Shown: piece after piece, positions 36,473 through 53,433 of the stretch
How the letters are laid out: every line of letters begins with the position of its first letter
How positions within the stretch are numbered: position 1 is the first letter of the stretch
Assembly: GCA_951812665.1 (NCBI GenBank)
Contig: CATOST010000045.1
Coordinates: 1-64,000 of the forward strand
Length of the DNA: 64,000 bases
Reading direction: 5' to 3'
Source of the DNA: an uncultured Acidobacteriota bacterium
Lineage (GTDB): Bacteria; Acidobacteriota; UBA6911; RPQK01; JAJDTT01
Notes under the pieces: generated by a model
The model's input: the letters and a program-made list of their open reading frames with translations, nothing else
What the model was told of the DNA's origin: nothing
Databases searched by the model: none
Position numbers and translations under genes: made by a program

Positions 36473-39115
36473 CTAGAAGGTATACCCTACCGTAAATCGA
36501 ATGTTCTTGCGACGTTCCTGCATCGGATAACGGATCCCGTTCACCGTAACCGTGGTATCCATGACCATGGGATTGTAGGCGAATATGAGGCGAAACGGCT
36601 GGTTGAGCATCGGCATCACAAACTGGAATTCCATCCCCGTCGACATCCGCCAAACATCGTTGGTGCTCTCCACCAGGTCAATCGCCGTGTTCGGTCCGAA
36701 CAGAACCAGCTTGTTCTTCTTCAGTACCGTGTTGATCCCGAAATCCGCGAATGCGGCCAGATGAATGGGCCCGGCCACGGGAATTCGGTACTCGCCGGTA
36801 AAGAGTAAAGATGTGTCTCCACCCGCGGGCACCAGATTCTCGCTCAGGGCCGGAAGTCCCGTCCGGCGATCGATGATGGGATTTCCCGATTCGTCCCTCA
36901 AGGGTGATCGAGTCTTGGCCCACGGTGTCACCGATCTCAGATCGAACCCCCGAAAGTCGAACTCGCCGCCCCGGTAGATGCGTTCGAAGAACGGCACCGT
37001 CATGGGGCCGCCGTTGGGCAGTTTTCCGTACGGGAGCAGGTGCAGAAACTGAGCTCGAAAGCCCATACTGTTGCGGCCGCCGCTCAACCAGCGGTCTTCC
37101 ATGAATTTCTGATATTCGAGGATGGGGGAAACGACGTTGTAGGTCCCCCCCAAGGGCCCCCCGGCAAGAGGAACCTGGAGTCGCAACATGGACCCCCGGG
37201 TGGCGCCAAAAAATGCGTTCTTGCTGTTGTAGGTCCAACTGGGGGTGACCTCGCTCCGGATGATGCCTTTCTGGGCATCTTCGCGGCTGCCGCCGGGAGT
37301 GAACCCGGTCAGCTGACTCAAGGCAAAATCGCCGAAGGATTCCGCCACGTCCGTGATGCTGATCCTCTGGAGCTGATAAGAGAGTCCCACCCGCACCCAT
37401 CGCCACAGGGGATAGGCTGTCTGCACACTGAACCCGGTACTGCTCCGGGTAAAAAGGTTGACGTTGTTCTCGGGCAGGAACAGACCATAGAAGGCCGTAT
37501 AGGTATCGTAACGGAAGCGCTGGCTGAAGATGGAGAACCCCAGGGACAGGCGTGTATCCAGAAAATACGGTTCTTGGAACGAGAAATTGTACTGCTGAGT
37601 TCGAGTCCCGGTGACCGCCTGGACGTAGATTTGCTGTCCCAATCCCCGGAAGTTGTTGGTGGAATAACTGAGCCCGATGAACTTGCCGCTGATGCCGCTC
37701 ACGCCGCCCGTCAGGCCGATGGATTGTTGACTCTGCTCCTTGACCGTGACCAGAACGTCCACCTCGGCCAGATCCGGGCGCTTGACGACCTCGTAATCCT
37801 CCTCCTCGATCTTGTCGAAGAACCCCAACTGATTGAGGCGAATGACGGAAATGTCCAACAGGTCGCCGTTGAACTGCCGCTGCTCCTCCAGCAGAAACTC
37901 ACGCCGGAGGACCTTGTCCCGGGTCTTGGTATTCCCCAGGAAGTTGATCCGCTTCACCAGGTACTGCTTCCCTTCCTCCACCCGGATCGCGACGTTCATG
38001 ACATTTTCGTTTTCGCCCTTGTCGATCTCGGGAATCGCCTCCATATCCAGGTAGCCGTAGCGGGCGTAGAGCTTTTTCAGATCGTCGTTGGCCTTCTGCA
38101 GTAGGACCCAGTTGAAGACTTCACCTTTCTGAATGTTGTAGGCGCGGGTCAGGACTTCGGCGTCGAAGTTCTTGATGCCCTCCAGCTTGAAGTCGCCGAA
38201 CCTGAACTGAGGCCCCTCGTCGATGGGCACGGTGATGAAGTACTGTTGCTTGGTCTTGCGAAAACCGAAAAGAATGCCTCGGCCCGCCTCCACGATCTCC
38301 ACCTCGGGTTCGCCGAGCCGGGCCTCCATGTACCCCCGCTCCCGGTACTTGTCCATCATGTTGACGTGGAGATCGTGCTCCACCTTCTCCTTGATGTACT
38401 TGTCGAGACCCTTGAAGAGGGTGATGGGCCCCCGCTCCTTGGTCAGCTCCAAGCCTCCCCGCAATTCCTTGTCCGAAAAGACCGTGTTGCCCTCGAATTG
38501 AATCTTGCCGATCCTCACCTTGGGGCCTTCGTCGATGTTGAAGACCACCTTGACGGCGGAAGACGTGATCGGCTCGACGGTGACCTCCACTCGGCCCAGA
38601 GGGCGTCCGTTGGTGTCCAGCAAGGTCCGCAGGGCCCGCCGCGCCTTGGGCAGCTTGGCGCCGTCGAAGGGGTTGTCGACGGTCATCCCCACCTTGAGTT
38701 CCCGGAACTGCTCCAACACGTCCGATTCCTTGAAGGACTTCATGCCCTTGTATTCGATGGTCCGAATGAGGGGGCGTTCCTTGACCTCGAACAGGACGAT
38801 GGTTCCCGTCTCTCCCTCCATTTTCTTCACCTTGGCATCGAGGAAGAAATTGGTGTTGAGGAGACTCCGGTAATCGCGGAGGATCTGCCCTTCGTTATAG
38901 ACGTCCCCCTGCCGGCTCTGGATGTAGAAACGAATGGTGTCCTCGCTGATGCGCCGATTCCCGAGGATGCGGACTTCCTCGAGGCGGCCGACCGATTGGC
39001 GGTCCTGGGCGCCGAGAAGCTCGGAGCCTCCCCAGGAAAACACCAGAATCAGAAACACGATCCGGCAGATCCGGACGGCGTTCAGTCTCTGAGCAGCACG
39101 ATCTGGTTTGCCCAT
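36473..39115 (-). CDS. bamA: outer-membrane protein assembly factor BamA
   Basis: About 880-aa Omp85 protein. Signal peptide (RICRIVFLILVFSWGGSELLG region), five POTRA domains (first: VEEVRILGNRR-like, VRILGNRRISEDTIRFYIQS), then a C-terminal 16-strand barrel starting around residue 480. Lid-loop motif and the typical final strand NIRFTVGYTF ending in Phe are present. It inserts beta-barrel proteins in the outer membrane. The ATG at 39115 gives a conventional signal peptide; the track start lies 12 codons earlier. A 253-bp spacer containing a structured element separates it from clpC. Confidence 0.96.
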   Translation of the reverse strand: MGKPDRAAQRLNAVRICRIVFLILVFSWGGSELLGAQDRQSVGRLEEVRILGNRRISEDTIRFYIQSRQGDVYNEGQILRDYRSLLNTNFFLDAKVKKMEGETGTIVLFEVKERPLIRTIEYKGMKSFKESDVLEQFRELKVGMTVDNPFDGAKLPKARRALRTLLDTNGRPLGRVEVTVEPITSSAVKVVFNIDEGPKVRIGKIQFEGNTVFSDKELRGGLELTKERGPITLFKGLDKYIKEKVEHDLHVNMMDKYRERGYMEARLGEPEVEIVEAGRGILFGFRKTKQQYFITVPIDEGPQFRFGDFKLEGIKNFDAEVLTRAYNIQKGEVFNWVLLQKANDDLKKLYARYGYLDMEAIPEIDKGENENVMNVAIRVEEGKQYLVKRINFLGNTKTRDKVLRREFLLEEQRQFNGDLLDISVIRLNQLGFFDKIEEEDYEVVKRPDLAEVDVLVTVKEQSQQSIGLTGGVSGISGKFIGLSYSTNNFRGLGQQIYVQAVTGTRTQQYNFSFQEPYFLDTRLSLGFSIFSQRFRYDTYTAFYGLFLPENNVNLFTRSSTGFSVQTAYPLWRWVRVGLSYQLQRISITDVAESFGDFALSQLTGFTPGGSREDAQKGIIRSEVTPSWTYNSKNAFFGATRGSMLRLQVPLAGGPLGGTYNVVSPILEYQKFMEDRWLSGGRNSMGFRAQFLHLLPYGKLPNGGPMTVPFFERIYRGGEFDFRGFDLRSVTPWAKTRSPLRDESGNPIIDRRTGLPALSENLVPAGGDTSLLFTGEYRIPVAGPIHLAAFADFGINTVLKKNKLVLFGPNTAIDLVESTNDVWRMSTGMEFQFVMPMLNQPFRLIFAYNPMVMDTTVTVNGIRYPMQERRKNIRFTVGYTF

Positions 39116-39209
39116 CTTCAAGATTCTATCCAGTGCCCTCCGGCAGGACAATTTTTGATCGACGATCCCATCCCGATTTCTGACCTGGACTGGGAGATTA
39201 GTGAATCTG

Positions 39210-39368
39210 CAGCCCGCGGCATAAGTCTTCGTGGCCTCTGACCAAGGTCGCCTTCCGGCGGAAGGTTTTGCTCCTCGGTTACATACTCCCCGTATGCTTC
39301 CTCGTCACTCCTTGACCGGCGAACCGCTCGCCGCTTCGGGTCCTCCGCGGGACTTACACCACGGGCCG
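39210..39368 (-). ncRNA. 159-nt structured palindromic element abutting the clpC stop codon
   Basis: Outer arms CAGCCCGCGGCATAAGTC (39210-39227) and GACTTACACCACGGGCCG (39351-39368) pair over 18 positions. As a plus-strand RNA four positions would be A-C mismatches; as a minus-strand RNA all four become G-U pairs, so the stem is intact only in the direction clpC and bamA are transcribed. Inside are hairpins CGGCGA/TCGCCG (39317-39333), ACATAC/GTATGC (39281-39297, again one G-U on the minus strand) and CCTTCC-GGC-GGAAGG (39251-39265). The right arm begins at the base after the clpC TAA. Could be a functional RNA, an intergenic attenuator, or a small palindromic mobile element. Partial copies at 41998 and 48105. 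Confidence 0.6.
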
Positions 39369-41810
39369 TTACGCGATCCCGAATGACAGGGGAACACCTG
39401 CACTCTTGGATCCCTTGGCCCGATAGTACAATGCTCCACCCTTGATAAAGATGGAGAGAGTTTCCTTTTCTTTCAATTTTCCCTGAATGATCAACTCCGC
39501 AACCGGATCTTCAATATATTTCTGAATGGCTCTCCTCAGGGGGCGTGCGCCATAGGAACGGTCGCGGCAAGTCTTGTCTATGATCCATCTTTTCGCGCTC
39601 TTGCCCAACGATATGCGAATCTGCTTCTGGGACAGATTCTCGTTGCCCTTGTCGATGAGCAGATCGACGATCTTTCCCAGATCCTCTTCGGTCAGGGAAT
39701 CGAACAGGATGAGGTCGTCCACCCGATTCAAAAACTCGGGATTGAAGACCCGTTTCACCTCTTCCATGATGACCTCTTCCACCTTCTCCTTCCCCTGATC
39801 CGCTCCGCTCGCAAACCCCATCTGGGGTTTGTTCATCAGGTATCGGGCTCCGATGTTGGAGGTCATGATGATGATGCCGTTCTTGAAATCGACGGTATTC
39901 CCATGGGAGTCGGTCAACTGGCCGTCTTCGAAGACCTGCAGCAACAAGTTGAAGATGTCGAAGTGGGCTTTTTCGACTTCATCCAGAAGGATCACGCAAT
40001 AGGGATTGCGCCGGACACGTTCGGTCAGCTGCCCACCCTCTTCGTGCCCCACGTATCCAGGGGGCGAACCGATGAGCTTGGACACCGAATGTTTCTCCAT
40101 GTACTCGGACATGTCGAAGCGGATCAGCGCCTTCTCGCTTCCGAACAGGAACTCGGCCAATGATTTGGCCAACTCGGTCTTGCCCACTCCCGTGGGCCCC
40201 AGGAACAGGAAGGATCCTACCGGCCGGTTCGGATGTTTCATCCCGGCTCGGCTCCGGCGAATTGCACGGGCGAGCGCGGATACCGCCGTGTCCTGGCTGA
40301 TCACCCGGCGGTGCAGGTCAACCTCCATGCGCAGCAGCTTCTGGGTCTCCTCTTCCCGCAACGCGCTTACCGGAATCCCGGTCCAGCGGGAGATGACCTC
40401 TTCGATATGTTTCCGTCCCACCAACGGAGTGACGCGATTCTTGAGCTTCCAGCGATCCTTGACGATCTTCAGGTTCGCGCGCTCCACCACCTCGCGGTCC
40501 TTGAGTTGGGCCGCCCGGTCGAATTCCTTGGCGGAGATGGCGTCGTCCACTTCCCGGACGGTCACCCGAATCTTCTGTTGGAGAACCGTCACTTCGTCGG
40601 GAAATGAGGTGTAGTTGAGTTTCACCCTGGCTCCGGCTTCATCCAGGACGTCGATCGCCTTGTCCGGCAGAAATCGATCGGGGATGTAACGATTGGAATG
40701 GCTGACCGCAGCCTTGATGGAATCGTCGTCGTATTTCACCCGGTGGAAACTCTCGTAGCGTTCCTTGATGCCGTGGATGATCCGTATCGTCTCTTCTTCG
40801 TTGGTTGCCGCCACCTTTACAGACTGGAACCGGCGTTCAAGGGCCCGGTCCTTCTCGATGAAACGGCGGTATTCGTAAGGCGTCGTCGCCCCCACGCACT
40901 GGAGATCCCCACGCGACAGGGCCGGTTTCAGGATGTTGGCCGCATCCAGTGAGCCCTCTGCCGAGCCGGCGCCCACCAGCGTGTGCAACTCGTCGACGAA
41001 GATCACGAATTGGGGATTCTCGATGATCTCCTTCATGATGGACTTCAACCGCTCCTCGAACTGCCCGCGGTATTTGGTGCCGGCCACGATCAAGGAAATG
41101 TCCAGAGCGAGAATTCGTTTGTCCAGGAGCATGGTGGGAGCGTCGCCGTTGACGATTCTCTGCGCCAGGCCCTCTACGATCGCCGTTTTTCCCACCCCCG
41201 GCTCACCGACCAGAGCCGGATTGTTCTTGGTCCGGCGGCAGAGAATCTGGGTGACACGCTCGATCTCGGCCTCGCGGCCGATGAGGGGGTCCAAGTCTCC
41301 GCACATGGCCGCTTCGGTCAGGTCCCGGCTGAACTCGGTCAGGATCAAAGATTCCTTCACCTTATGCGGCGTGGGACGTCCCGGATTTCCAGACAGCTCA
41401 TCCCGAACCCGCGCCAGATGCAGCCCTTTTTCGGTCAGGATCATCGAGGCCGCCGACTTCTCTTCCCTGAGGAGGCCCAAAAGAATGTGCTCGGTCCCGA
41501 TATAACTGCAAAGCAGGCGTTCCGCTTCTTCGGCGGCAAACGTGAGCACCCGCTTTGACTCATCGCTCAGAGGAAGTTCGACTGAAGTCGAGACTTTCTC
41601 CCGGACTCCCGAACGACCTTCGATCTCCTTGCGAATCGTCTCCAGCGTGGTTTCGCTCCTGCGGAAAAAGCGGTTGGTGAGACCCTTGTCCTCCCGGAGC
41701 AGGCCCAGCAGGATATGTTCCGTTTCGATGGACCGGGAACCGAGCTGACTGGCCTCATATCGGGCAAAGAAAATGACCCGCCTCGCCTTTTCCGTGTACT
41801 TCTCAAACAT
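39369..41810 (-). CDS. clpC: ATP-dependent Clp protease ATP-binding subunit ClpC
   Basis: About 813-aa AAA+ unfoldase that feeds substrates to ClpP. Two Clp-N repeats (residues ~1-150), first AAA domain with GEPGVGKTAIVEG, a coiled-coil middle with a UVR-like helix pair (AISAKEFDRAAQLKDREV), and a second AAA domain with GPTGVGKTELAKSL and EYMEKHSVSKLIGSPPGYVG. The ATG at 41810 (MFEKYTEKARR) is the classic ClpC start; the track start is 26 codons upstream. A TATAAT -10 lies 68 bp upstream, so clpC probably has its own promoter. The C-terminal tail continues after the domain with SKSAGVPLSFGIA and then meets the structured element. No CIRCE or CtsR box was recognised. Confidence 0.95.
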   Translation of the reverse strand: MFEKYTEKARRVIFFARYEASQLGSRSIETEHILLGLLREDKGLTNRFFRRSETTLETIRKEIEGRSGVREKVSTSVELPLSDESKRVLTFAAEEAERLLCSYIGTEHILLGLLREEKSAASMILTEKGLHLARVRDELSGNPGRPTPHKVKESLILTEFSRDLTEAAMCGDLDPLIGREAEIERVTQILCRRTKNNPALVGEPGVGKTAIVEGLAQRIVNGDAPTMLLDKRILALDISLIVAGTKYRGQFEERLKSIMKEIIENPQFVIFVDELHTLVGAGSAEGSLDAANILKPALSRGDLQCVGATTPYEYRRFIEKDRALERRFQSVKVAATNEEETIRIIHGIKERYESFHRVKYDDDSIKAAVSHSNRYIPDRFLPDKAIDVLDEAGARVKLNYTSFPDEVTVLQQKIRVTVREVDDAISAKEFDRAAQLKDREVVERANLKIVKDRWKLKNRVTPLVGRKHIEEVISRWTGIPVSALREEETQKLLRMEVDLHRRVISQDTAVSALARAIRRSRAGMKHPNRPVGSFLFLGPTGVGKTELAKSLAEFLFGSEKALIRFDMSEYMEKHSVSKLIGSPPGYVGHEEGGQLTERVRRNPYCVILLDEVEKAHFDIFNLLLQVFEDGQLTDSHGNTVDFKNGIIIMTSNIGARYLMNKPQMGFASGADQGKEKVEEVIMEEVKRVFNPEFLNRVDDLILFDSLTEEDLGKIVDLLIDKGNENLSQKQIRISLGKSAKRWIIDKTCRDRSYGARPLRRAIQKYIEDPVAELIIQGKLKEKETLSIFIKGGALYYRAKGSKSAGVPLSFGIA

Positions 41811-41877
41811 GAAGCGATTTCCATCTAAATTTAAGCAAACCGCAAATGCCCGAGCAAACGGTTCACCGACTCCGTAG

Positions 41878-41883
41878 ATTATA
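41878..41883 (-). promoter_or_regulatory. candidate -10 element of clpC
   Basis: A perfect TATAAT on the minus strand, 68 bp upstream of the clpC ATG, in the lolD-clpC spacer. No good -35 hexamer is seen at 16-18 bp, so recognition may need an activator or alternative sigma factor. Confidence 0.4.
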
Positions 41884-41997
41884 CACACGCATAGTGAAAA
41901 AGCCGGAAACCGGCGCCGCCAGGATCGCTCCGGGACCCGGAATCGCGCCCGATCGAGTTTGGAGCTCCGGAGACCGGCAAGAACATGGAATGCTTAA

Positions 41998-42077
41998 CAG
42001 CCCGTGGCAAAAGTCATCACGGCATTCGACCGTCCCTGCATCGTGCGCGGACTACGTTGCGACCCGGTCACATACTC
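41998..42077 (-). repeat. 80-nt half copy of the clpC-bamA structured element, abutting the lolD stop
   Basis: On the minus strand this begins with GAGTATGTGACCG directly after the lolD TAA and ends with GACTTTTGCCACGGGCTG. The full element has GAGTATGTAACCG and GACTTATGCCGCGGGCTG at the same distance (79 nt), but the sequence between is poorly conserved. The other arm of the 18-bp stem is missing here. Confidence 0.55.
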
Positions 42078-48104: not shown

Positions 48105-48136
48105 TCGAATGCCGCGACGACTTTTGCCACGGGCTG
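48105..48136 (+). repeat. 32-bp copy of the palindromic-element end, abutting the ptsI stop
   Basis: TCGAATGCCGCGACGACT and the following TTTGCCACGGGCTG match the minus strand of the 41998 copy with two transitions in 32 bp. It lies between ptsI and pgsA. Relative to the transcribed strand it is in the opposite orientation to the copies at 39210 and 41998, yet also directly touches a stop codon. Confidence 0.55.
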
Positions 48137-53172: not shown

Positions 53173-53433
53173 GGCACTCCGGAATTGCTCCGGTTCAGGG
53201 TCCCTTGGCGGCCCGAAGCAAAAGTCGGCACGTCATTTGGCCGGGCCAGCATCCCGGTGGACATCGCCGACCCTCGGTTCCCTCCGATCGAGTATGCTTT
53301 GTCGTCCCGTCTGGTCCGGCGGCCGCATACCCGTGGTCGGGGCTAAGCGGGACTGTCACCACGAACCGCTGCCGATGAATCCCCTGCAGCGCGGAGGGAA
53401 GTTTCAGGCCAGTCCAACTGGCGCCCACTGGGC

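Follow-up and report, generated by a model that had tools for sequence, protein, structure and literature searches.

We consider it very probable that the structured spacer between clpC and bamA in the window (the whole analyzed stretch of DNA, 64,000 nucleotides from an uncultured Acidobacteriota bacterium) derives from a non-autonomous hairpin MITE that inserted there long ago, that the respective family is likely moved by an IS1182-like IS, and that the docking on the clpC stop codon results from the YTAR target of this family. In this way, a conspicuous structured spacer is traced to common transposon biology, the stop-codon docking receives a quantitative basis (YTAR target, 18% of the harmless sites), and an Acidobacteriota-type genus gains a MITE family of high copy number together with its likely partner IS. 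An earlier note on this locus had offered three readings of the element, namely tuning of bamA expression, a processed small RNA and a palindromic mobile element; the last of these was the right choice, given the multiple copies, the shared ends and the 4-bp duplications.

The clpC-bamA element and its family

Direct reading of the sequence bears out the placement of the element in the earlier note, from the base after the clpC TAA (39371-39369) to 94 bp before the bamA start: its first base is 39368 and its last base is 39210, with 94 nt left to the bamA ATG at 39115 (the longest bamA open reading frame starts with TTG at 39151). The element is in the sense orientation between co-directional genes for a ClpC-type ATPase (39369-41888) and BamA (POTRA and Omp85 domains), both assigned using Pfam and both on the minus strand. 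The 18-bp closing stem described in the note, whose four non-Watson-Crick pairs are exclusively G-U on the minus strand (zero A-C), was recovered as well; two of these four wobbles, at stem positions 11 and 12, are already present in the family consensus. The window copy is an old insertion, judging from the 37 substitutions over 154 sites that separate it from the consensus and from the lack of a visible duplication: the right counterpart of its GTAA, read directly from the sequence, is CAGA (39209-39206), so the match is lost. The table also includes three other family sequences from the window; one of these, the half MITE, has TTAA on both flanks despite the loss of its left half.

Table. 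MITE family sequences in the window, with the ends and the presumed target duplication of the clpC-bamA copy
Feature	Coordinates	Strand	Evidence
Diverged copy of genus-specific 158-bp MITE, 5' end at the clpC stop	39210..39368	-	nhmmer family profile, E=6.7e-32
Left terminal inverted repeat CGGCCCGTGGTGTAAGTC (family version CAGTCCGTGGTGAAAGTC)	39351..39368	-	alignment with family copies
Right terminal inverted repeat GACTTATGCCGCGGGCTG (family and IS version GACTTTTGCCACGGGCTG)	39210..39227	-	alignment with family copies and IS ends
GTAA, presumed left target duplication, includes the clpC TAA stop	39369..39372	-	sequence; 4-bp YTAR duplications of the family
Right half of a further copy, adjoining the TAA of a lolD-like gene	41998..42077	-	nhmmer E=3.2e-19; sequence
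Right-end remnant, GACTTTTGCCACGGGCTG intact	48105..48136	+	nhmmer E=4.6e-5; sequence
Another old full-length family copy	53209..53369	-	nhmmer E=5.4e-17; alignment

The family was analyzed in the genome under study (G000; 5.72 Mb in 59 contigs) and in three sister genomes of the genus (G001, G002 and G003). A BLAST comparison of the window stretch with its own genome detected eight further places with 67-82% identity, and the consensus derived from these places yielded full-length matches for all 40 scored among 206 candidates. In the 2.59 Mb of G000 that were read, a profile search identified 64 full-length copies, 63 of them intergenic, which corresponds to a density of about 25 per million bases; the genome-wide copy number of about 140 is an extrapolation from these 2.59 Mb. 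The copies are non-coding, about 158 bp long, and have sharp ends (CAGTCCGTGGTGAAAGTC...GACTTTTGCCACGGGCTG) and 18-bp terminal inverted repeats. The family is present in 4 of the 4 genomes of the genus, with further copies in the three sister genomes, and was absent from all 56 searched genomes of other genera. Across GTDB genomes, an exact 33-nt end pattern matched only two MAGs, both from this genus: JAPOYZ (COS4_bin_49, labelled Candidatus Aminicenantes) and JAJDTT (jk18x1bzbins.39, labelled Acidobacteria). Thus, this is a new MITE family, though not a new kind of element, and it has a likely partner IS. Integron attC sites came into consideration owing to the flanks, but by eye the R'/R'' boxes are not conserved among the aligned copies, and this reading was rejected.

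Target sites and the likely partner IS

The flanking 4 bp are identical in 56 of the 107 copies, compared to 6% in a shuffled-flank control, with zero cases for lengths 3 and 5 to 9, and the target consensus is YTAR. Reverse-complementary flanks were rejected as the target rule (3 of the 74 non-palindromic cases vs 33 direct). Five sister-genome copies, all at sites other than the clpC-bamA locus, face element-free sites in G000, and at some of these sites the duplicated bases show point differences; the short alleles of the window copy are deletions. The copies dock on stop codons because the YTAR target contains TAA or TAG. A stop codon is abutted by 14 of 63 copies (22%) vs the 18.2% expected from the 1283 YTAR sites of the read DNA that could take an insertion without damage to any gene (p 0.41; gene calls, here and in the orientation counts below, come from a simple purpose-made caller), so special stop-codon recognition is unnecessary.

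A search for facing ends in the read 45% of the genome (2.59 Mb) revealed three elements of 1476-1478 bp on contig C30 that have the MITE's ends and contain one transposase ORF each. The complete IS copies share the 18-bp end CAGCCCGTGGCAAAAGTC and are flanked by 4-bp duplications (TTAG, CTAT and TTAA), the same length as in the MITE, where that of the window copy itself has decayed; the right ends of the MITE and the IS are identical in 18 of 18 positions and the left ends in 15 of 18. The transposase matched NCBIfam IS1182 (NF033551, E=5.9e-50) as well as Pfam DUF772; its score of 170.6 bits falls below the curated NF033551 cut-off of 270, and for this reason we limit the name to 'IS1182-like'. 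G000 encodes five complete or nearly complete transposase reading frames and one with a TAG, G001 retains fragments, G003 a trace, and G002 none. Taken together, the ends and the duplications point to the 1.48-kb IS1182-like element with an intact transposase as the likely mover of the MITE. The MITE does not appear to be a simple deletion derivative of the IS because its interior has no visible counterpart there. Two IS copies, C30:10712-12189 and C30:17358-18833, have mismatched flanks of their own (ATAG/TTAA and CTAA/ATAG, respectively), and the left flank of the former is the same as the right flank of the latter, which suggests rearrangement between the copies.

In the proposed mechanism, the IS1182-like transposase would recognize the 18-bp ends common to the MITE and the IS and place the MITE into a YTAR site, duplicating 4 bp; a TAA or TAG inside the target would be rebuilt by the duplication, such that no gene is harmed and the insertion survives. 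By the YTAR-duplication route of the family, the window copy would begin one base past the clpC stop because the stop within the target was recreated, with subsequent decay of the right duplication. Transcription of the operon would then include the inserted copy as a long hairpin, and the copy would later decay or be deleted, as in two of the sister species.

RNA folding and one-sided wobble pairs

The fold of the window copy beats chance on both strands and more strongly on the minus strand: the sense fold reaches -74.2 kcal/mol (0 of 200 shuffles as low, z -3.7) and the antisense fold -62.6 kcal/mol (1 of 200 shuffles as low, z -2.8). The family consensus folds into one long hairpin, imperfect but with 61 pairs (-101.9 kcal/mol sense, -82.2 kcal/mol antisense), and the three additional hairpins reported for the window copy mainly correspond, in the family, to the upper part of this single structure. 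On one strand, each of the seven wobbles in the consensus hairpin is a G-U and none an A-C (sign test ~0.016). Among 24 diverse copies, 12 pairs changed on both sides, compared to 5.4 after shuffling; the covariation score, which relatedness can inflate, was above those of all 500 shuffles.

Single copies show no sign of being held to the RNA strand because recent mutations lack the G-U bias: singletons at paired sites make 11 G-U and 14 A-C pairs, and variants present in no more than two copies make 22 and 20, respectively. Another count (385 vs 4 cells) had appeared to show a strong G-U bias; it was set aside as dominated by founder positions, the bias being gone among the rare variants. Thus, the wobble stems mainly from the founder, and because a single palindrome can inherit one-sided G-U wobble in this way, its presence there says little for RNA selection. 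The orientation of the copies relative to flanking co-directional genes is unbiased as well (19 same, 13 opposite). At the clpC-bamA locus, the proposed selection for an RNA fold is not supported given these counts and the deletion of the copy in two of the four species, and what may persist of it is constraint on the founder copies. Such founder constraint is possible because all seven consensus wobbles are G-U and the hairpin was kept by paired changes across subfamilies.

A selected hairpin RNA made from the sense strand of the founders and useful to the MITE itself, for example, by lowering its cost or acting as a small RNA, would explain the seven one-sided wobbles, the sense-antisense difference of the consensus and the paired changes, although a DNA palindrome would also acquire paired changes if its arms were under selection or copied from one another. 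Randomly mutated consensus sequences fold much more weakly than many subfamily members on both strands, which fits a palindrome kept as such, and the difference between sense and antisense in simulated decay is mostly not significant. Given also the lack of G-U bias among recent variants, of any promoter-like or terminator-like site inside the element, and of any credible Rfam match to it at gathering or relaxed thresholds, we find this explanation quite improbable. It is still a little harder to accept that the MITE is an RNA-selected mobile element whose founders had to retain an RNA fold on just one strand; if true, such constraint would imply a transcript function for the element or the host. 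The size, the mobility and the closing stem of the element are reminiscent of HEARO/OMEGA-type RNAs (IscB/IsrB guide RNAs); this reading, or that of another known structured RNA, has a negligible probability and was rejected because the HEARO covariance model (RF02033) found nothing in the whole genome at E<=1, no Rfam family scored above chance at the element, and the 4-bp duplications point to a DDE-type transposase.

Adoption of this particular copy by the host is more plausible than these possibilities, if still unlikely. The clpC-bamA hairpin would then serve as a processing or stability element, for instance, as a cleavage site of RNase III, and would reduce or adjust bamA expression. 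Its sense orientation between two co-directional genes and its stable fold are compatible with such a role, as are the cleavage of Correia/NEMIS RNAs by RNase III and the effect of ERIC on mRNA stability (PMC10969869, PMC2229807). Furthermore, the window copy folds better than randomly mutated consensus sequences (0 of 300), in contrast to the copy at 53209..53369 (p 0.47), although an older subfamily could explain this difference. In the orthologous copy of G003, 16 of 159 positions differ from G000, that is, 10% of the sites, compared to 20% in the 200 bp to its right, spacer included. Because of this lower divergence and the better fold, the window copy may be under some constraint. Nevertheless, one of the G000-G003 differences makes a G-G in the closing stem, the element is lost from this locus in G001 and G002, and neither the orientation of the family copies to genes nor the G-U and A-C counts among recent mutations are biased. 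With the old MITE insertion as the preferred explanation, an effect of the copy on the clpC-bamA mRNA is speculative, and any such effect, possible by analogy with Correia and ERIC, would be a by-product of an insertion that two relatives discarded.

Fate of the locus and comparison with known elements

In G001 and G002 (spacers L168 and L170, respectively; L169 in G003), only the first ~22 nt of the element remain after the clpC TAA, and a common deletion, as read by eye, extends from there to ATAGAATC near the bamA start. The window copy is dispensable in these two species, given that two of the four deleted most of it, and the insertion most likely predates the split of the four. By bamA distances, G002 and G003 are the closest (0.037), yet the deletion is common to G002 and G001 while G003 retains the element; either recombination or old polymorphism at the locus would produce this pattern.

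Several known families are similar in kind. Like the present MITE, the Correia repeats/NEMIS of Neisseria (107-155 bp) are small intergenic MITEs with terminal repeats and target duplication that are transcribed as hairpins within mRNAs, but their host and ends are unrelated, their target is TA rather than a 4-bp YTAR, and the RNase III cleavage shown for them would be only a possibility here. ERIC (127 bp, enterobacteria) is likewise an intergenic, imperfect palindrome with a high copy number that is transcribed with neighbouring genes; it differs in sequence and target, and here a likely partner IS is found in the same genome. MITEAba12 of Acinetobacter and QMITE2 of Coxiella are also non-autonomous IS-related elements, and QMITE2 similarly resides mainly in 3' untranslated regions (PMC10969869). 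Unlike MITEs of IS families in general, the one reported here has a likely IS1182-like partner from which its interior is not visibly derived. The IS1182 family is the closest to the partner transposase (NF033551), but insertion of its staphylococcal member IS1272, in which target stem-loops are replaced, produces no duplication (PMC5678879), in contrast to the clean 4-bp duplication observed here.

Some copies in G000 have been altered internally. Two 97-nt derivatives (C18:11477-11573 and C18:138571-138667) keep both ends and have lost the upper half of the hairpin. The copy at C9:152010-153683 is interrupted near the apical loop by ~1.5 kb of other DNA with a ~7 bp repeat at the break, probably another IS inserted into the MITE, and the copy at C18:350710-351115 carries ~250 nt of unrelated sequence inside its apical loop.
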